Part shown: positions 13,661 to 21,528 of the stretch, piece after piece
How the letters are laid out: every line of letters begins with the position of its first letter
Position numbering within the stretch: the stretch's first letter is position 1
NCBI RefSeq assembly: GCF_900142535.1
Contig: NZ_FRBE01000008.1
Coordinates: 1-64,000, forward strand
From: Fibrobacter sp. UWEL
GTDB lineage: Bacteria > Fibrobacterota > Fibrobacteria > Fibrobacterales > Fibrobacteraceae
Direction: 5' to 3'
DNA length: 64,000 nt
Translations under genes and position numbers: made by a program
Notes under the pieces: model-generated
Seen by the model: the letters and a program-made list of their open reading frames with translations, nothing else
The model's database searches: none
What the model was told of the DNA's origin: nothing

Positions 13661-16585
13661 ATGAAGAGAATGAAATTTGCTTTTGCTGGCATTTTGAGTG
13701 CGCTGGCGTTAGGCCTTGGTGCTTGTGGCGACGAAAAAAGTTCTACGGCCCCGGAGGAGCAACCTTTGGGAGGACTGTCTTCGGATTCTGAAGAATCCTT
13801 GAGCTCCTCTAGTGCGGGGTACTCCGCAGGATCTATAGTCCCGAGTGTTTCCAGTTCATCTGTTGAGGGAACGTCTGAAGGTGCGTCGGCGGGTTCGTCA
13901 GAAGCATCGTCTAGTTCCGCTGCGGACTCTATGGCGAGTTCGTCAGGTTCCGTCGCAGACACGATTGCTGTAGTGGCAAAGCCCCCGGTGGTTTTTACCG
14001 AAGTGGATGTTGTGAACTTGTCTTACAAGGATGAGGAAGGCGGTGACGCCGGCTGGGTGGAAGTTTATAATCCTGCGGACACGGCGGTGAACCTGAAGGG
14101 ATTTTACTTGACCAATACTTTGTCGGATCCCGCGAAGTTCAAGTTCGGTGATGTGGTGGTCAAAGCTAAGTCCCATATGATTGTGTATTTGTCCGGTAGA
14201 AACTTGCCTGACTTTGTGGCGCCCCACGATACCACAGATCTTTTGAGTTCCTATTGCGAAACGGAATCGGATGCGGTAAGTTATGCAGGTCGCGGTAATA
14301 GCGAAATCAAGCCGTTGCCGGGTCAGTCTGATTTTTGCTTTGTGGAAAACGGAGCCAACAGGGCTGGCGCCCAGTATATTCCCGTGAAGGGAACTTTGGG
14401 CTATTATGTTCTGGCCTTGACTATCGGCGCAACGGAAAAGGGCGCGACGGACAAGGAGAAGGTTCCTGTAGATCTTTCCAATGTAAATATGTTCCAGATG
14501 AGGGCCTATATTCCCGAAGGCCATTCCATCAACTTCAAGCTGACCCAGAAGGGCTTCCGCGATGTGAAGGGCTGGACCAAGATTTTGGAAGGCACGGGCG
14601 ATTCCAACACGGTTTATTCCATCAGGCCTACGCTCCACACGGACTATCCTAACATGGCTCAAATTACGGGCGTTCGCCTGGATATTGATAACCACGATTC
14701 CATTGCGAAGAATATTAAGGTTTTCAGCTACATCGCCTATAGCCGCGGTCATGAACCTCATGCTAATTTCAAGTCCAAGAAGGAAGGCGGTTCCCTTTAC
14801 TTGTTTAACGGCGAAAAACAGTTGGTGGATTCTGTGATGTATCCTGCGGCTGTCATTGGAAAAACCTGGTCTTTGGAAGTCGCGACCGGCGCTGGTTCAG
14901 ACGGCGCGAAACGTTGGGGCTTTGCCGCTGCAACTCCTTACGGCGCAACAGCTGGCGCAGTGGAAAACGCAGCATCACAAAATGCGAAAACAGAATTCCC
15001 CAACTCCGGTTTTTATTCAAAGGCATTTAGTATTGCGTTTGGAAGCGCCGACGATTACCGCTGCGAAAAGGGCGGCACTGTTCCTACGGCCACGAGCCCG
15101 CTGATGGCTGCTGAATTGAAGATTGATACCACCACGGTTTTGCGTTGCGCTACTTTTACCGACGGCGCAGTTCCTGGTAATGTCATCAATCGCACTTACA
15201 TTTTCGAGGAACAGCCAACGGTTGCCTCCGTGTTTATTACTGGAGATCCCCTGCAGATGTTCCATGCGGATTCCGGCTTGTTCAAGAACGAGAATTTCTG
15301 GGGCGACAAGGAAATTCCTGTGAACATCGAATTGCTGGAACCGGGGAAAACTGCGCCTGGTTTTAGCGAGAATGCAGGCCTTGCCATGAGCGGTAACGCC
15401 ACCCGCACCTGGGCCAAGAAATCTGTGGAAATCACCTTCCGCGAAAAGTACGGAAAGAACAAGCTGGATTACGCGCTGTTCCCGGAATTCCCCAACCTGA
15501 AAAAGTTCAAGAGTTTCAAGCTCCGCAATAACGGAAATAATTTCCACTTTGACTACATTCGCGATATGCTGGCATCCTCCATTACGGAGGGTCTGGGCGT
15601 TGATTACCAGCACGGCCGCGCTTCTATCGTTTTCTACAACGGTGAATACTACGGCATCCATAACATCCGCGAATCTTCCAACAAGAATTACTACTTGGCC
15701 AACTACAACTTGGACGGTGATCAGATTGATTTGCTGATCAGTTCCGGTGACGTGGCCACAGGTTCTCCGGTGGATTTCAGGGATTTGACCAACCTGCTGT
15801 TGACTTCGAAAATGACCGACGAGGATTTGGAAAAAATCAACGAACAGCTGGACTTGAACAACCTAATCAATTACTACGCTGCAGAAATTTTTGCAGACAA
15901 CCGCGACTGGCCCGGCAACAACCGAAAGATCTGGCGCAGTAAAAATCCCAAGACTGCCTGGAAGTGGTTTATGTTCGATACGGATATGGCTTTCGACAAT
16001 ACCCAGAGCAAGTTGACAGGAAATATTTTCGAGTTTGTCACAGCTGAAAATTCCGGCTGGCCCAACAATCCTGAGTTTACTCTGCACCTGCGCATGTTGC
16101 TGAAGAATGAAAATTTCAAGGCCGCATTTATCAACCAGATTGCAACCACACTTTGTATGAACTTTAGTTCAGAACGAGTGGTTGCCCGCATGAATAAATT
16201 GCAGGGCGACATCTCCGCAGAAATTGCCCGCGATCAAAAGCGCTGGAGCAAGAACGTTGCTACCATGACAGAACACGAAGGCAGAATCAAGACCTTCGCC
16301 ACCACCCGCCAGGATGTGGTCCGCAGCGAAATGCAGGAACACTTCGCCTTAGGCGAAATGGTTGACGTAACTCTCGCAAGTTCCGGCAACGGCACCGTGC
16401 AAGTTCATTACTTGCCGCTGGATAAATCCTCCCAGAAAATAAAGTTTTTCAAGGGAACGCCCGTGACACTCACTGCCGTTCCCAAGGACGGTGCCATGTT
16501 TACTGGCTGGAGCGATGGCATCAAGGACGCAACTCGCACCATTGATCCTACGGATGGCTTGAAGGTGACTGCGAACTTTAAGTAA
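13661..16585 (+). CDS. CotH-type lipoprotein with lamin-tail domain and C-terminal B-repeat-like module
   Basis: 974 residues from the ATG at 13661. The N-terminus ends in a lipobox (LALGLGACGDE), then a ~75-residue Ser/Glu-rich linker. Residues ~105-190 look like a lamin-tail domain (EVDVVNLSYKD, GWVEVYNPADTAVNLKGFYL). Residues ~490-870 resemble CotH kinase-like proteins (FKLRNNGNNFHFDYIRDM, YNGEYYGIHNIRESSN, WKWFMFDTDMAFD). The last ~70 residues (FFKGTPVTLTAVPKDGAMF, GWSDG) resemble a bacterial repeat (InlB B-repeat/Big) module. CotH in Bacillus is an atypical protein kinase of spore coat proteins; in cellulolytic bacteria CotH domains are common on the surface. The substrate here is unknown. 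A terminator overlaps the 3' end of the convergent ATPase gene. Confidence 0.8.
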   Translation: MKRMKFAFAGILSALALGLGACGDEKSSTAPEEQPLGGLSSDSEESLSSSSAGYSAGSIVPSVSSSSVEGTSEGASAGSSEASSSSAADSMASSSGSVADTIAVVAKPPVVFTEVDVVNLSYKDEEGGDAGWVEVYNPADTAVNLKGFYLTNTLSDPAKFKFGDVVVKAKSHMIVYLSGRNLPDFVAPHDTTDLLSSYCETESDAVSYAGRGNSEIKPLPGQSDFCFVENGANRAGAQYIPVKGTLGYYVLALTIGATEKGATDKEKVPVDLSNVNMFQMRAYIPEGHSINFKLTQKGFRDVKGWTKILEGTGDSNTVYSIRPTLHTDYPNMAQITGVRLDIDNHDSIAKNIKVFSYIAYSRGHEPHANFKSKKEGGSLYLFNGEKQLVDSVMYPAAVIGKTWSLEVATGAGSDGAKRWGFAAATPYGATAGAVENAASQNAKTEFPNSGFYSKAFSIAFGSADDYRCEKGGTVPTATSPLMAAELKIDTTTVLRCATFTDGAVPGNVINRTYIFEEQPTVASVFITGDPLQMFHADSGLFKNENFWGDKEIPVNIELLEPGKTAPGFSENAGLAMSGNATRTWAKKSVEITFREKYGKNKLDYALFPEFPNLKKFKSFKLRNNGNNFHFDYIRDMLASSITEGLGVDYQHGRASIVFYNGEYYGIHNIRESSNKNYYLANYNLDGDQIDLLISSGDVATGSPVDFRDLTNLLLTSKMTDEDLEKINEQLDLNNLINYYAAEIFADNRDWPGNNRKIWRSKNPKTAWKWFMFDTDMAFDNTQSKLTGNIFEFVTAENSGWPNNPEFTLHLRMLLKNENFKAAFINQIATTLCMNFSSERVVARMNKLQGDISAEIARDQKRWSKNVATMTEHEGRIKTFATTRQDVVRSEMQEHFALGEMVDVTLASSGNGTVQVHYLPLDKSSQKIKFFKGTPVTLTAVPKDGAMFTGWSDGIKDATRTIDPTDGLKVTANFK

Positions 16586-16601
16586 GCCGTAATCGCTTGT
16601 T

Positions 16602-17876
16602 CTAATTAAGCATCCAGTCGATGGCTGATTGGATGCTTATTTTTTTGTTTTGTACTAGAACCTCGCGGCTTTCGTTAAATGCAATCAAGGTCAGCTTTTC
16701 GCAGTCGCACTTGCTTGCAGCATTAACAAGCGCAGATGTTTCTCTCTTGAAACTTTTTTCTGTGCTGATGTCATAGGCGACTTGCACAAGCTCTACAACT
16801 TTTCCTTGGCTGCATACAGCAAAATCAACTTCCTTAGATTGTGTAGTGGGCTTGTAGAAATAAACATCCTGAAAATCTTTGGCCGCCCTTCGCAGCAATT
16901 CTATGAAAACTACGTTTTCCAGACGCCACCCGAGATTTTCTGGGGAGAGAATATCTTCGCGATTGTCAATAATGCCGGTGTCGACGACATAGCTTTTTTG
17001 GTTGCGAAGACGTTCCTTGCTTTTGAAGGTATGCTTGCTTAAAAGGCAAATCAAAAAAGCTTGCTTTAGGTAGTCAACGTATTTGGCGATGGTAGTTGCG
17101 CTCAATTCAAATTGTTTTGCGATTTCCTTGTAGTTAATCTCCTGACAATTATTGTTGATGAAATGATTCGCAATGGTTTGCAGAACTTCGGCGTTTCGGA
17201 TGTTGAATCTGTGCTTGATGTCTTTTTGGATAATCGATGTGATTAAACTTTGTATGTAAGCTCGCTTATTTTTGATGGACTGCAGTTCTGGAAAACCGCC
17301 GTCGTGCAGGTATTTGTTGAACGCGATCTTTCTTGCGGCATCGGCCTTGGTGGTGACGCCACTAGTTTCAACATTGTGAAACTTGCAGTATTCAGCAAAC
17401 GAGAATGGGTAAAGTTTTATTTCGTTGTAGCGGCCTGTAAGGTGGGTAGCAAGTTCGCTGCTAAGGAGTTTTGCGTTTGAGCCTGTAACAAAAACTCGCA
17501 TTCCAGATCTCAGGAGCCTGTTCACGAAAAGATGCCAGCCGTCGACGTTCTGAATTTCATCTAGGAATACGTACTTAATGTCTGTTCCATAAATCTGGTA
17601 TAAGGCGCAGAGAAGTTTGTTCAAATCCTCTGTGGAAATCCCATAGAGACGGTCATCATCAAGGTTCGCGTAAGCGTACAAAATGTTATTGCTCTTTAGT
17701 GCCTTATGGCAAAGTGTAGATTTTCCACTGCGTCTAACGCCGATGACCACTTGGGCCAAGGCAGAATCAAACTCAAATAGAGATTCCTCAAAACGTGGCA
17801 CGAGGGAAGATGTATCCATGTTCAGGATTTCTTCTTTCTGTTCGGCAAGCACCTGCAAAATGACATTGTCTTCCAT
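16602..17876 (-). CDS. AAA-type ATPase with DUF4143 (ATP-binding, PD-(D/E)XK-like C-terminus)
   Basis: 424 residues. Walker A GVRRSGKST at about residue 47 and Walker B-like YVFLDEIQN near residue 103 define the AAA domain. The region from ~200 matches DUF4143 (winged helix around QFELSATTIAKYVDYL), and the C-terminus contains KEVDFAV, a typical D-x-V nuclease-like core. These proteins are abundant, usually single-gene, and of unresolved role; mobile-element or defence links have been suggested. The start is ATG at 17876. Three 32-bp repeats lie directly upstream and probably form the promoter/operator region. Confidence 0.85.
   Translation of the reverse strand: MEDNVILQVLAEQKEEILNMDTSSLVPRFEESLFEFDSALAQVVIGVRRSGKSTLCHKALKSNNILYAYANLDDDRLYGISTEDLNKLLCALYQIYGTDIKYVFLDEIQNVDGWHLFVNRLLRSGMRVFVTGSNAKLLSSELATHLTGRYNEIKLYPFSFAEYCKFHNVETSGVTTKADAARKIAFNKYLHDGGFPELQSIKNKRAYIQSLITSIIQKDIKHRFNIRNAEVLQTIANHFINNNCQEINYKEIAKQFELSATTIAKYVDYLKQAFLICLLSKHTFKSKERLRNQKSYVVDTGIIDNREDILSPENLGWRLENVVFIELLRRAAKDFQDVYFYKPTTQSKEVDFAVCSQGKVVELVQVAYDISTEKSFKRETSALVNAASKCDCEKLTLIAFNESREVLVQNKKISIQSAIDWMLN
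16606..16645 (+). terminator. Terminator of the CotH-type gene, inside the 3' end of the convergent ATPase gene
   Basis: AAGCATCCA and TGGATGCTT separated by 13 nt, then ATTTTTTT. It overlaps the last codons of the minus-strand gene at 16602-17876. Confidence 0.75.
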
Positions 17877-17890
17877 ATCTCTGTTCCTTA

Positions 17891-17964
17891 GTGTGCTAAA
17901 ATATAATTTTCAGAGTGATAAAGTGTGCTAAAATTTAATTTTTGAGTGTTAAAAGTGTGCTAAA
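17891..17964. repeat. Three phased 32-bp tandem repeats upstream of the DUF4143 ATPase
   Basis: GTGTGCTAAA begins at 17891, 17923 and 17955, exactly 32 bp apart (about three helical turns), with AT-rich, largely conserved spacers. The third copy is cut after ~10 bp. They lie 15-88 bp upstream of the ATPase start, and the third reaches the 3' end of the YhcG remnant. Possible operator sites for a dimeric regulator. Confidence 0.75.
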
Positions 17965-18240
17965 TGGAGTTTTCAACAACTCGTTCATCAATATCTTGCG
18001 GATTTCGTTCGCCAAGCTCTTCAACATTGATGAAGTCCAGCAGGTATTCATCCTTGAACATTGAAATCGCTTTTTGTGCATTTTTGGCATTTTCTAATTC
18101 GCCAGCCGTTGGCTGACGATTTAAAATTGGATTCCATTCTTCAAAGAATTGTCTCATATTTTTGATATTTGATGCAGAAAATCCCCGCAAACCGGGCTAA
18201 TCTTTTCCATATTTCACTTTGCGCTCATGAACAATAATCC
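17960..18240 (-). pseudogene. Remnant of a YhcG/DUF1016-type PD-(D/E)XK nuclease gene
   Basis: The reading frame contains pieces of a DUF1016 protein in the right order. RKVKYGKD is followed by an in-frame TAG, then PGLRGFSASNIKNMRQFFEEW and NRQPTAGE (N-terminal domain), then FKDEYLLDFINVEELGERN (start of the nuclease domain), ending at VVENSI and a stop. About 20 residues are missing before PGLRGF, ~80-100 residues between the two domains, and all of the nuclease core. An intact but divergent family member is encoded at 20301-21347. The longest open piece (18190 to 17960, 76 codons) is unlikely to make a working protein. Confidence 0.75.
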
Positions 18241-19809
18241 TTATAGTGTCTGGCAGAATTCATAAAATTCGTCGTTTTCCACATAGGCACGAACTAAATC
18301 CTGTACTCCATCTGAATTGATACTGACACGAACCATGGGATAATAACGTTCAAATTTTTCTGGATGCGTTTCTATATTCTTAAAAATTTTCTCCCATGTA
18401 TCCTTCATCAAACGAAGGTTTTTGTTCTGTAAGGCAAAATATTTGAACATTTCCTCAAATTTTTTCTTTGAAATTTCAGCATAATATTCTTCCTTAGTTG
18501 CCGCCTTATAAAATTCAATCCATTCTTTAATTTGCTCTAGGAGTTTTGGGCATATTGAATCGCCCTTTTCGTAAAAAGGAAGGTGGTTATAATCTGCAAT
18601 ATCGTATTTTTCTTTTTCAGCTTTTTGTTCTGCGTTAAATTTGTCGTGAACGTCATTCAGCAGGGTGCAATTATCGGGTCTCGCCGAGGCGTTCTTTTTT
18701 AAATATTCTTCAACAATTTTTTCTACATCACATTTTGTGCCGATGACAGATGCAAGTTGTTGCTTCAACTCATCAAGGGGAACAAAACGATCAACATTTT
18801 TATTCCTCGCTCCCATAAGGAATACGCTTGCAAATTGTTTTTCTACACACATTGTTTCGCCGGAGGCTTCATCTACATCTAGGCAGTTGTGTAAATCTTT
18901 TTTCTGCACATGGATATTCGTCTCTAGAATATGATTTAAGAACATCTCGTATGGGTTGCCGGTTTTGTCGTTGCCCAGCAAACTTTCGGGGTTCATGGCG
19001 ACAAACTCTTCGCAAACAACGGAAACGGGAATAGGGTAGGCGAGGATGTCCCGAATACTCCTAGAAAATCCATACGTTCCAAGTCCATTTCCATTCAGTT
19101 TTGCTCTGACAAAATCGCGTTTTGCGGACTCGTCAAACCTTTGTTCAATAAAATCAAAGTATTCCTTGTTCTTTGGACCTAGATAAGTGGCTTCGAAAGT
19201 TAGAATACGTTTTTCATTTTCTATTGGAAGTTTAGACACCCGTTCGAAAAGGCGGTTCAAGTCGCAGCGTAAAGGTGTCTTAATCGGTGTTTTCAGATAA
19301 CGATTTGCTTCTTCAATTGCATAATAGCATTGACCGTAGGTAATATCGCCAGAGCAAATTGCTTCCCCATTCAAACGATCGTCCAGTAAGCAACCTATGG
19401 CAAGTAGCGCCATATGGTATGGCTCACCTTGAGTTTTGCTTCCAAAGTATTCATGAAGGTTATTAATGGAGGGGTTCTCAAAATTGACAATACCATGTTG
19501 TGCAAGAACGTACATCAACGGGTCGGCGTATTCTTCCGTTGGATCAGATTCGGGAATTCTTCTAGGAAGAAAATGGTCTTCTGCAGTCCTCAAAAAAGTT
19601 CCGTCGCCTATTGTAAGCCAGCCAAGTCGACCGTTAATTTCCCTTTCTTTACTGTGTGTTAGACAGTAAATTTTACGATCAAACTTTTTTATTTCATCGT
19701 ATTCTACGAGGTTGAATTTTTCCACTAGAGTTAGGGTTTCTTCGTATGCCTTTTCCCACTGTTCCGGAGAGACCTTATTAGATACGTTTAAATGAATAAA
19801 AACGCCCAT
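18241..19809 (-). CDS. Unrecognised 522-aa cytoplasmic protein preceded by a long structured leader
   Basis: 522 residues, no signal peptide or membrane segment. The N-terminus MGVFIHLNVSNKVSPEQWEK has the look of a ferredoxin-like strand-helix start. The protein is acidic, rich in Glu/Lys/Tyr, and the C-terminal third is helical (KEEYYAEISKKKFEEMFKYF). I do not recognise a catalytic motif or named family, although the opening resembles hypothetical proteins I have seen from gut Clostridia and Prevotella. AAGGAAAT precedes the ATG. It has its own promoter at 20130-20158 and a ~310-nt leader with several hairpins, and sits between a decayed and an intact YhcG nuclease gene. RNA-binding, defence or toxin-antitoxin roles are guesses from context. 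Confidence 0.75.
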   Translation of the reverse strand: MGVFIHLNVSNKVSPEQWEKAYEETLTLVEKFNLVEYDEIKKFDRKIYCLTHSKEREINGRLGWLTIGDGTFLRTAEDHFLPRRIPESDPTEEYADPLMYVLAQHGIVNFENPSINNLHEYFGSKTQGEPYHMALLAIGCLLDDRLNGEAICSGDITYGQCYYAIEEANRYLKTPIKTPLRCDLNRLFERVSKLPIENEKRILTFEATYLGPKNKEYFDFIEQRFDESAKRDFVRAKLNGNGLGTYGFSRSIRDILAYPIPVSVVCEEFVAMNPESLLGNDKTGNPYEMFLNHILETNIHVQKKDLHNCLDVDEASGETMCVEKQFASVFLMGARNKNVDRFVPLDELKQQLASVIGTKCDVEKIVEEYLKKNASARPDNCTLLNDVHDKFNAEQKAEKEKYDIADYNHLPFYEKGDSICPKLLEQIKEWIEFYKAATKEEYYAEISKKKFEEMFKYFALQNKNLRLMKDTWEKIFKNIETHPEKFERYYPMVRVSINSDGVQDLVRAYVENDEFYEFCQTL

Positions 19810-19834
19810 ATTATTTCCTTATGATGACAAACCA

Positions 19835-20129
19835 TACCCAAGGCCTCCATGGACTTTGGGTACGACAAGTCAATACAACACACGCTTGGCGTGCATTGGT
19901 TAAAACAACATTTTTTGGTTAATGGTTCGGTATCAAAATACCGAGGATGTGTTTGCCATTTCGCAGGCGGAGGCCCACTCCCCTAATCAGCCGCGTCACT
20001 CGCTGATCCGATTCCTGCTTTCTTTACCGCTAATGTCAAACGATGCAACTGCCGCGCTGGGACTTGGAAGCTAAACCTTTCGGAAAAAACTTCACACCAC
20101 TATCACACGGATTATCTTCGTCGGCAGTT
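19835..20129 (-). ncRNA. Candidate structured RNA or long 5' leader
   Basis: This ~300-nt stretch has no credible coding sequence but holds several stems. There is a perfect 7-bp hairpin at 19927-19944 (TCGGTAT-CAAA-ATACCGA), CACGC-TTG-GCGTG at 19881-19893, a 7-bp stem closing 19835-19862, and ATCAGC/GCTGAT at 19986-20007. AACTGCCG/CGGCAGTT (20047-20054 with 20122-20129) could close the 5' part, though the second half abuts the -10 box. A CC-GAAA-GG tetraloop lies within that domain. It is GC-richer than the flanking gene. It could be an independent ncRNA, a riboswitch-like leader of the 522-aa gene, or both. No known RNA family was recognised. Confidence 0.55.
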
Positions 20130-20158
20130 AATATAAACTCATTCCAAATGGTTGTCAA
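20130..20158 (-). promoter_or_regulatory. Strong sigma-70-type promoter for the structured RNA/522-aa gene
   Basis: Read on the minus strand: TTGACA, 17-nt spacer, TATATT. This is a perfect -35 with a near-perfect -10 and ideal spacing. The start site is expected around 20123, about 310 nt before the ATG at 19809. Confidence 0.8.
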
Positions 20159-20197
20159 GAGGGACTAAGAAATTACAAATCTTTAACAAAGTAACCC

Positions 20198-20225
20198 TTG
20201 CAAGATTTTTTGAAAAATCTATTGT
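20198..20225 (+). promoter_or_regulatory. Promoter with embedded 18-bp palindrome upstream of the YhcG-type gene
   Basis: TTGCAA, 16-nt spacer, TATTGT. The spacer contains the palindrome AGATTTTT-TG-AAAAATCT (20203-20220), which would place a repressor between -35 and -10. Expected start near 20232. Confidence 0.5.
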
Positions 20226-20255
20226 TTATCCCGAGCGTTACGAAATGTCTCCTGA

Positions 20256-20282
20256 ACACCTGATAAGAATCAGGTGTTTTTT
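20256..20282 (+). terminator. Terminator-like hairpin in the leader of the YhcG-type gene (possible attenuator)
   Basis: Perfect 9-bp stem ACACCTGAT-AAGA-ATCAGGTGT followed by six T. It lies between the putative promoter (20198-20225) and the AAAGGAG ribosome site (about 20290), so read-through or antitermination would be needed for expression unless another promoter exists. Confidence 0.75.
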
Positions 20283-20300
20283 CAATTTAAAGGAGATACT

Positions 20301-21347
20301 ATGGCCAAACAAAAATCCAATATTCTGCCACAAGATTACACTACTTGGGTTTGCGAACTCAAGAAGCGTTATGCTCAATCACAAATCAAGGCATCCATTG
20401 CCGTCAACGGCGAACTGATTGGCTTTTACTACAGTTTAGGCCGCGATATTCAGCAGAAGCAATTTCAGAATACTTATGGCAGCGGGTTTTATAAAAAACT
20501 TAGCGAAGACTTGCGCCGTGAAATTCCAAATGCCAAGGGGTTTTCGCCTACGACTTTGAAATATGCGGTGTATTTCTATGACTTGTACAAAGATTTTGTA
20601 GATGGACAAAATCGTCCACAACTTGTGGACGATTTGAAGAAAATTCCTTGGGGACATCATCGCTTTATCATCGATTCCTGCAAAGGATCCCCTAAAAAGG
20701 CTCTATTCTTCGTAAAAAAGACCATTGAAAACAACTGGTCCCGTTCCGTGTTGCTCACGTTTCTTGATACGGATTTGTATGAGCGTGAAGGTCGAGCTGT
20801 TACAAATTTCACCACGACTTTGCCCAAGGCGCAGGGAGATTTGGCTCGTGAATTGACTCGAGACCCGTATTGCTTTGACTTTGTGGAAGTTCGTGGCGAT
20901 TTTGAGGAGCGGGAACTGAAAGATGCTCTGCTCAAGAATATTGAAATGTTCATGATGGAACTTGGCCGTGGTTTTGCCTACATGGGGCGAGAATACCGTT
21001 TGATGGTTGGCGAAACGGAGCAGTTTTTGGATATGCTCTTTTACAACACTAGGTTGCATTGTTATGTGGTGGTTGAAGTGAAAACAGGAAAGTTTGAACC
21101 TGCGTACATTGGACAGCTTAGCACTTATGTGGTGGCCGTGAATCACCTGTTGAAAACTCCGGAAGACAAGCCCACGCTTGGAATTTTGGTGTGCAAGGAC
21201 AAGGACGAAATTCTTGCGCAGTATTCTTTGGAGGGAACTGTCAATCCCATTGCCATTTCGGAATTTGAATTGGCCAAGATTTACCCGAAGGATTTCAAGA
21301 GCAGTCTGCCCTCTATCAAGGAACTGGAAGATGGATTAAGGGGATGA
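20301..21347 (+). CDS. YhcG/DUF1016-family PD-(D/E)XK nuclease-like protein
   Basis: 348 residues from the ATG at 20301 (AAAGGAG 7 nt upstream). Residues ~10-130 form the DUF1016 N-terminal helical domain (IAVNGELIGFYYSLGRDI, GFSPTTLKYAVYFYDLY, WGHHRFIID). Residues ~180-330 form the PD-(D/E)XK domain (DFVEVRGDFEERELKDALL, FAYMGREYRLMVGETEQFLDMLFYN, VVVEVKTGKFEPAYIGQL), with the E-x-K pair in VEVKTG. Family members are described as nuclease-like proteins often found near restriction systems or mobile elements; the role here is not proven. Divergently placed from the 522-aa gene. The upstream hairpin suggests conditional expression. Confidence 0.88.
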   Translation: MAKQKSNILPQDYTTWVCELKKRYAQSQIKASIAVNGELIGFYYSLGRDIQQKQFQNTYGSGFYKKLSEDLRREIPNAKGFSPTTLKYAVYFYDLYKDFVDGQNRPQLVDDLKKIPWGHHRFIIDSCKGSPKKALFFVKKTIENNWSRSVLLTFLDTDLYEREGRAVTNFTTTLPKAQGDLARELTRDPYCFDFVEVRGDFEERELKDALLKNIEMFMMELGRGFAYMGREYRLMVGETEQFLDMLFYNTRLHCYVVVEVKTGKFEPAYIGQLSTYVVAVNHLLKTPEDKPTLGILVCKDKDEILAQYSLEGTVNPIAISEFELAKIYPKDFKSSLPSIKELEDGLRG

Positions 21348-21459
21348 CTTATAAATCGTTGCGGCTTCTGTTAGGGACCGAAGTGGCGCAGCCATTCGAA
21401 CGGGTTTACGTTTTTTGTAAGATGAAACTATAAACCCGGTTGAACGAAATGTTTTTGCT

Positions 21460-21496
21460 AGATCCTTCGACTTCGCTTCGCTCCGCTCAGGATGAC
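21460..21496. repeat. Dispersed intergenic repeat, expanded variant
   Basis: Same ends as the copy at 12175 (AGATCCTTCGACTTCG ... CTCAGGATGAC) but with ~10 extra bases of TTCGCTCCG-like sequence in the middle. It lies just upstream of lysA; the rest of 21348-21528 shows no gene. Confidence 0.75.
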
Positions 21497-21528
21497 ACCG
21501 GGCGAAGTTTTTCTAAATTTCGCGCCAT

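Follow-up and report, generated by a model that had tools for sequence, protein, structure and literature searches.

Comparative analysis of a 64,000-nt stretch of contig NZ_FRBE01000008.1 of Fibrobacter sp. UWEL (hereafter the window, to whose positions the coordinates refer) revealed a structured RNA (20123-19836, minus strand) with its own TTGACA-N17-TATATT promoter. The RNA belongs to a family with a covarying structure, which is linked to accessory genes and whose partners have been exchanged; as far as sequence searches can tell, this family is absent from Rfam 15 and previously uncatalogued. We infer, at roughly even odds, that it is a lineage-specific leader RNA controlling exchangeable defence or toxin genes in cis. 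The relevant features of the window are as follows:

16602-17876, minus strand: gene for an AAA/DUF4143 ATPase (PADLOC candidate PDC-S01), adjoining the decayed YhcG piece
17960..18157, minus strand: decayed YhcG/DUF1016 fragment (weak PADLOC PDC-S02 match, E 8.9e-6; no Pfam match)
18241..19809, minus strand: gene for a 522-aa protein, the partner of the RNA in the window; it follows AAGGAAAT, with the Shine-Dalgarno (SD) sequence AAGGAA at 19820-19815
19836..19944, minus strand: 3' hairpins P7, P8 and P9, core-to-gene interval
19861-19854/19843-19836, minus strand: arms of P9
19895-19889/19885-19879, minus strand: arms of P8
19944-19938/19933-19927, minus strand: arms of P7
19945..20120, minus strand: RNA core, P1-P6 (match to covariance model R1, 167 bits, E 2e-38, the window itself being one of the nine R1 training sequences)
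19981-19978/19972-19969, minus strand: P6
20007-20003/19990-19986, minus strand: P5
20018-20014/19967-19963, minus strand: P4
20041-20033/19959-19951, minus strand: P3
20093-20090/20070-20067, minus strand: P2
20110-20106/20056-20052, minus strand: P1
20130..20158, minus strand: RNA promoter (TTGACA 20158-20153, 17-nt spacer, TATATT 20135-20130)
20198..20300, plus strand: class F leader of the intact YhcG gene (promoter-like TTGCAA, anti-SD, terminator hairpin, SD)
20274-21347, plus strand: ORF of the intact YhcG (DUF1016) PD-(D/E)XK nuclease gene, likely ATG 20301 (PF06250, E 1.7e-56)

The RNA promoter matches the consensus at 11 of 12 positions and is the best of nine promoter-like sites in 17900-21400. 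Much of the preliminary description of this DNA is thus borne out: the minus-strand promoter, the non-coding stretch, the SD and the gene starting at 19809 are all present, and the hairpins it named correspond to P7 (19944-19927), P8 (near 19889), P9 (19861-19836) and P5 (20007-19986). Both YhcG pieces, decayed and intact, between which it had placed an accessory spot, were found, and the location is defence-like; the intact gene is a divergent neighbour and does not lie downstream of the RNA.

Folding of the window sequence alone gave a whole-RNA stability not above chance (z -0.82). The stems seen in the window are therefore not in themselves evidence of structure, and the claim of a structured RNA, although correctly anticipated, rests on covariation among copies. 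A DNA search of 101 genomes revealed that the RNA stretch, and not the gene, recurs elsewhere within the genus (84% identity over 241 nt in genome G009; a core of 60-72 nt in others). In an alignment of nine copies, compensatory changes were observed in P1, P3 and P5, and 87% of the cells were paired, compared with 80.4% after shuffling. The covariation score was 0.269 versus 0.146 for shuffled alignments (none of 500 shuffles reached this value), and it was at most 0.114 when the pairing partners were slid. R1, the covariance model built from these nine copies, was used to search 168 genomes of the phylum and detected 14 copies, designated class A, in 10 genomes, all of them Fibrobacteraceae; elsewhere in the phylum none was found. 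Class A comprises few copies; with all 14, the score was 0.272 versus 0.143 shuffled. Chance structure is ruled out by this covariation. Counterparts of P7-P9 occur in most of the other class A copies, with variable sequence and conserved pairing: own arms pair at 95-100% and swapped arms at 25-53%, evidence which is softer than that for the core, since these arms were chosen by eye. The folding z-score of the 3' tail was -3.9 in the window and -0.6 to -6.2 in the other copies.

In each class A group, the -10 of the best -35/-10 pair ends 18-22 nt upstream of P1, and the pair matches the consensus at 8-11 of 12 positions (11 in the window and in locus L027). The window, L027, L030 and L062 have a strong version of this promoter; at L028, L063 and L064 it is weak. 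No small ORF is conserved among the class A copies, and a coding interpretation of the region was therefore rejected.

The genome searches used strict filters, and beyond the phylum the distribution was assessed with a class A-derived pattern only; scanning of 84,980 species genomes yielded ten matches, all in Fibrobacter or Fibrobacterales assemblies. An 18-base match present in many genomes proved to be internal to other genes. No class A copy was detected in viral contigs, phages or plasmids, and a phage, plasmid or viral origin of the RNA was set aside for lack of any match. The window RNA had no match in Rfam 15, either at the gathering threshold or up to E 10 on the RNA strand, and the same was true of seven class A copies at E 1 and, at the gathering threshold, of loci carrying the class B and class C copies described below. 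A literature search retrieved no description of the RNA family and no report linking DUF1016 with RNA motifs.

The protein encoded behind the window RNA matches no family in Pfam, NCBIfam or PADLOC, in line with the preliminary description, which could name no motif in it, and has no relative in PDB by sequence; its single-sequence AlphaFold2 model was unusable (pLDDT 42.6). Homologues (47-50% identity) were found in only one genus, the family having members in five of the 168 phylum genomes, which marks it, on present genomes, as a Fibrobacter-only orphan family. RNA and gene are adjacent, co-directional and probably co-transcribed in the window, as would be expected of a dedicated system composed of the RNA and the 522-aa protein. 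However, four of the five members of the protein family lack the RNA, which was absent from their loci even with filters off, and the remaining 13 class A RNAs are partnered with other genes. The RNA is real, and its partnership with the 522-aa protein is not conserved; this distribution largely refutes a dedicated system, which we regard as very improbable. The covariance search proposed in the preliminary description did yield covarying pairs and conserved RNA-gene linkage in other genomes. As to its suggestion of an "ncRNA-protein pair or RNA-regulated defence/toxin gene", the pair finds no support, the RNA preceding YhcG, Rpn and other accessory genes, and the RNA-regulated gene stands as the best-supported, if unproven, reading.

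Each class A copy lies on the same strand as, and just upstream of, an accessory gene or gene remnant. In 12 of the 14 cases these are genes, or remnants of genes, for (i) YhcG/DUF1016 proteins (L028, L030 and L061; broken or remnant in L029, L063 and L065) or (ii) Rpn (PDDEXK_2) proteins (L027, L031-L034, L064). Genes of these two families constitute about 0.5% of all genes in these genomes, and their presence in six of eight locus groups has a probability of approximately 4e-13. At L062, the partner is a gene for an 87-aa protein followed by a CopG-like gene; the two have an apparent promoter of their own and form a small gene pair reminiscent of a toxin-antitoxin module. No TnpB/IscB-type nuclease was found beside the RNA; the partners match other Pfam families or none. 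The RNAs preceding YhcG proteins are 73-79% identical, whereas those proteins share only 24-35% identity, and a copy preceding an unrelated Rpn gene shares 86% identity with the window RNA. Since the RNAs are far more alike than their partners, the RNA is the constant part of these loci and the protein the variable part. The decayed YhcG fragment downstream of the 522-aa gene is possibly an earlier partner of the window RNA. Two of the loci are decaying: at L065 the 3' end of the RNA is deleted and fused into the YhcG frame, and at L063 an intact RNA stands before a truncated YhcG gene.

At the site of the Rpn-linked class A copies, three genomes are empty, and G033 carries a different RNA and YhcG directly behind the promoter common to that site. 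In a set of leaders from 40 further YhcG and Rpn genes, the strongest of the weak R1 matches lay at the right place and on the right strand; a second model, R2 (class B), was built from five of these leaders and related copies. Of 111 Fibrobacteraceae genomes searched with R2 (threshold E 0.1 or better), 66 contained matches, 153 in all, and most of these had E below 1e-25. In an alignment of 54 class B copies, fitted to the model and so favouring the structure, 96.8% of the cells were paired and two-sided changes were present in 23 of 41 pairs, compared with a mean of 8.9 after shuffling (none of 500 shuffles reached the observed value). A long antisense ORF was seen over class B; a coding explanation cannot account for the two-sided pair changes and the indels. 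Nearly all class B copies have a promoter of the same type as class A at a near-fixed distance. Their partners include YhcG, ORF6N, AlbA_2, RhuM, a CopG antitoxin, an HTH protein and proteins of unknown kind; one copy was assigned a type I restriction R gene, which at a distance of 611 nt is too remote to be confidently counted as a partner. At L061 (4066-4843), a class B RNA is followed by a small gene and a CopG-like gene with an apparent promoter of their own. Over 146 kb of such loci, R1 gave only two matches (E 0.025 and 0.047), both of them class B copies, and from these sequence matches classes A and B are probably homologous. Class C, whose likeness to the other classes was recognized by eye only, in the P1 region, precedes Rpn and YhcG genes (L201, L129, L131, L134, L176). 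The class B copy in the window genome (L181, G000:C8 near 136.05 kb) is internally deleted and followed by an open YhcG frame; at L183 (G009:C4) a complete RNA precedes a YhcG frame that is apparently shifted.

Finding a large RNA in front of numerous unrelated genes usually points to cis control, and the RNA described here has a conserved structure and lies on the same strand as, and directly upstream of, several unrelated genes. We therefore favour a cis-acting leader. Each copy would start at its own sigma70-like promoter, and the transcript would fold into a conserved multi-helix core with hairpins and run toward a downstream gene whose product is potentially harmful or of the defence type. 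Toxicity and anti-phage activity are documented for Rpn proteins (PMC10327210), and PADLOC lists YhcG among its candidate defence families (PDC-S02). Acting in cis, the leader would set the output of the gene, possibly by reading a signal common to all partners (e.g. infection or stress), with self-harmful nucleases and toxins kept low until needed; the 522-aa protein would be one more exchangeable effector, for which no matching to the RNA is required. No terminator was found on the RNA strand of the window leader between the RNA and the 522-aa gene, and most partner genes have an SD-like sequence just 3' of the last hairpin, so read-through into the gene is to be expected. Against the cis reading, neither SD sequestration nor a terminator switch is visible in class A (the predicted fold leaves the SD of the window RNA's gene unpaired), and the toxin-antitoxin-like pairs at L061 and L062 have an apparent promoter of their own, so that the RNA at these two loci could be a separate transcript.

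These last two loci, together with the RNA's own promoter, its upstream placement and its toxic partners, would also suit an RNA acting in trans, i.e. one cut from the transcript or made alone that serves the downstream protein as a bound antitoxin or cofactor, in the manner of type III toxin-antitoxin or AbiF systems; in C. difficile, AbiF is neutralised by its associated ncRNA both in cis and in trans (PMC12373285). This reading is rather unlikely: one RNA family stands before unrelated protein families, all of which it would have to fit, RNA similarity does not track the protein family, and no tandem repeats of the kind that many type III antitoxins contain were seen.

A comparably small chance attaches to the view that the promoter-RNA unit is kept as a site for swapping accessory genes, with its folded strand used in recombination and any regulation secondary. 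Conservation of the class B unit begins at the -35 and stops where P3 ends, and the flanks on either side and the genes vary; RNA-gene units occur in tandem 0.6-1.9 kb apart (G057, G030, G033, G059), and behind one and the same promoter we found class A with Rpn (G059), class C with YhcG (G033) or nothing (G012, G047, G026). Nevertheless, the two-sided changes that keep pairs intact and the fixed spacing of the promoter hexamers fit a transcribed RNA, and no recombinase is known to be linked. We consider it plausible, if slightly short of even odds, that the Fibrobacteraceae-wide superfamily (A, B and probably C) serves the accessory defence repertoire as a shared module for control or exchange, in which one RNA would sense a shared cue or would let unrelated effectors be swapped behind it. 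To our knowledge, no shared RNA of such a kind exists for defence genes.

RNA control of YhcG and Rpn genes probably exists in these genomes in any case, as indicated by the class F leaders. In the window, this leader contains a hairpin (ACACCTGAT/ATCAGGTGT) with a T run and a GTCTCCT anti-SD facing the SD AGGAGATAC; leaders of this type also precede other YhcG and some Rpn genes (L179-L189, L203, L212, L213), and short leaders of this kind are frequent before those YhcG and Rpn genes that lack the class A/B RNA. The anti-SD pairs better with its own SD than with swapped ones (7.5 versus 6.0 pairs), and the class F leader is likely a terminator plus anti-SD attenuator. Other leaders were noted as well: the short leaders of several Rpn genes (L204, L206, L210, L207-L209, L211) share a hairpin motif of the type GGGCGATTCCCGG, and an Rpn gene of the window genome (L216, G000:C23) has a long, structured-looking leader with its own promoter, possibly another RNA class.

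The region 16585-21350 is a variable site. G024 keeps YhcG there, with a different gene (FISUMP-like by eye) in the place of the RNA and the 522-aa gene, and G025 has neither; similarity to G024 ends at 20167, 9 nt before the -35 of the RNA. A 40-nt interspersed repeat at about 21458-21498 (GATCCTTCGACTTCGCTTCGCTCCGCTCAGGATGAC) recurs many times, both in this genome and in genomes across Fibrobacter.

The results define a large, strongly supported RNA family outside Rfam, with well over 100 copies in one bacterial family and linked to genes of the nuclease, toxin and restriction-associated kinds. If cis-acting, it would be an RNA switch that anti-phage effectors have in common, and knowing its signal would explain how self-harmful genes stay quiet and then turn on; if an exchange element, it would represent a new way of assembling defence islands. 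On either reading, the RNA copies provide a sequence tag for unknown defence genes, such as that of the 522-aa protein.

Among known systems, the abiF motif RNA RCd22 of C. difficile (PMC12373285) is likewise a structured ncRNA, associated with a gene that is toxic and anti-phage, and has its own expression control, but it binds its one protein, whereas the partners of the Fibrobacter RNA belong to many unrelated families; the lack of an Rfam match to the window RNA bears on abiF only if that motif is in Rfam. Type III toxin-antitoxin RNAs (ToxIN, CptIN) also lie upstream of a toxin-type gene and have their own promoter. The Fibrobacter RNA differs from them in that no tandem repeats were seen, no terminator was seen between the window RNA and the 522-aa gene, and unrelated families stand behind the same RNA, which is thus not specific to one toxin family. 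With the riboswitch-like and other cis leaders of Rfam it shares a large conserved core placed in the 5' leader of several genes that are unrelated to each other, the usual sign of cis control, although it matched none of those families, no expression platform or ligand was seen, and its partners are of the defence type rather than metabolic. Rpn toxin-antitoxin defence genes (PMC10327210) constitute one of the partner families; the control described for them is by the intragenic RpnS protein, and the abstract of that report mentions no upstream RNA. Integron attC and other cassette sites are, like the RNA copies, folded elements among exchangeable accessory genes; unlike them, the Fibrobacter RNA sits 5' of the gene and carries its own promoter.
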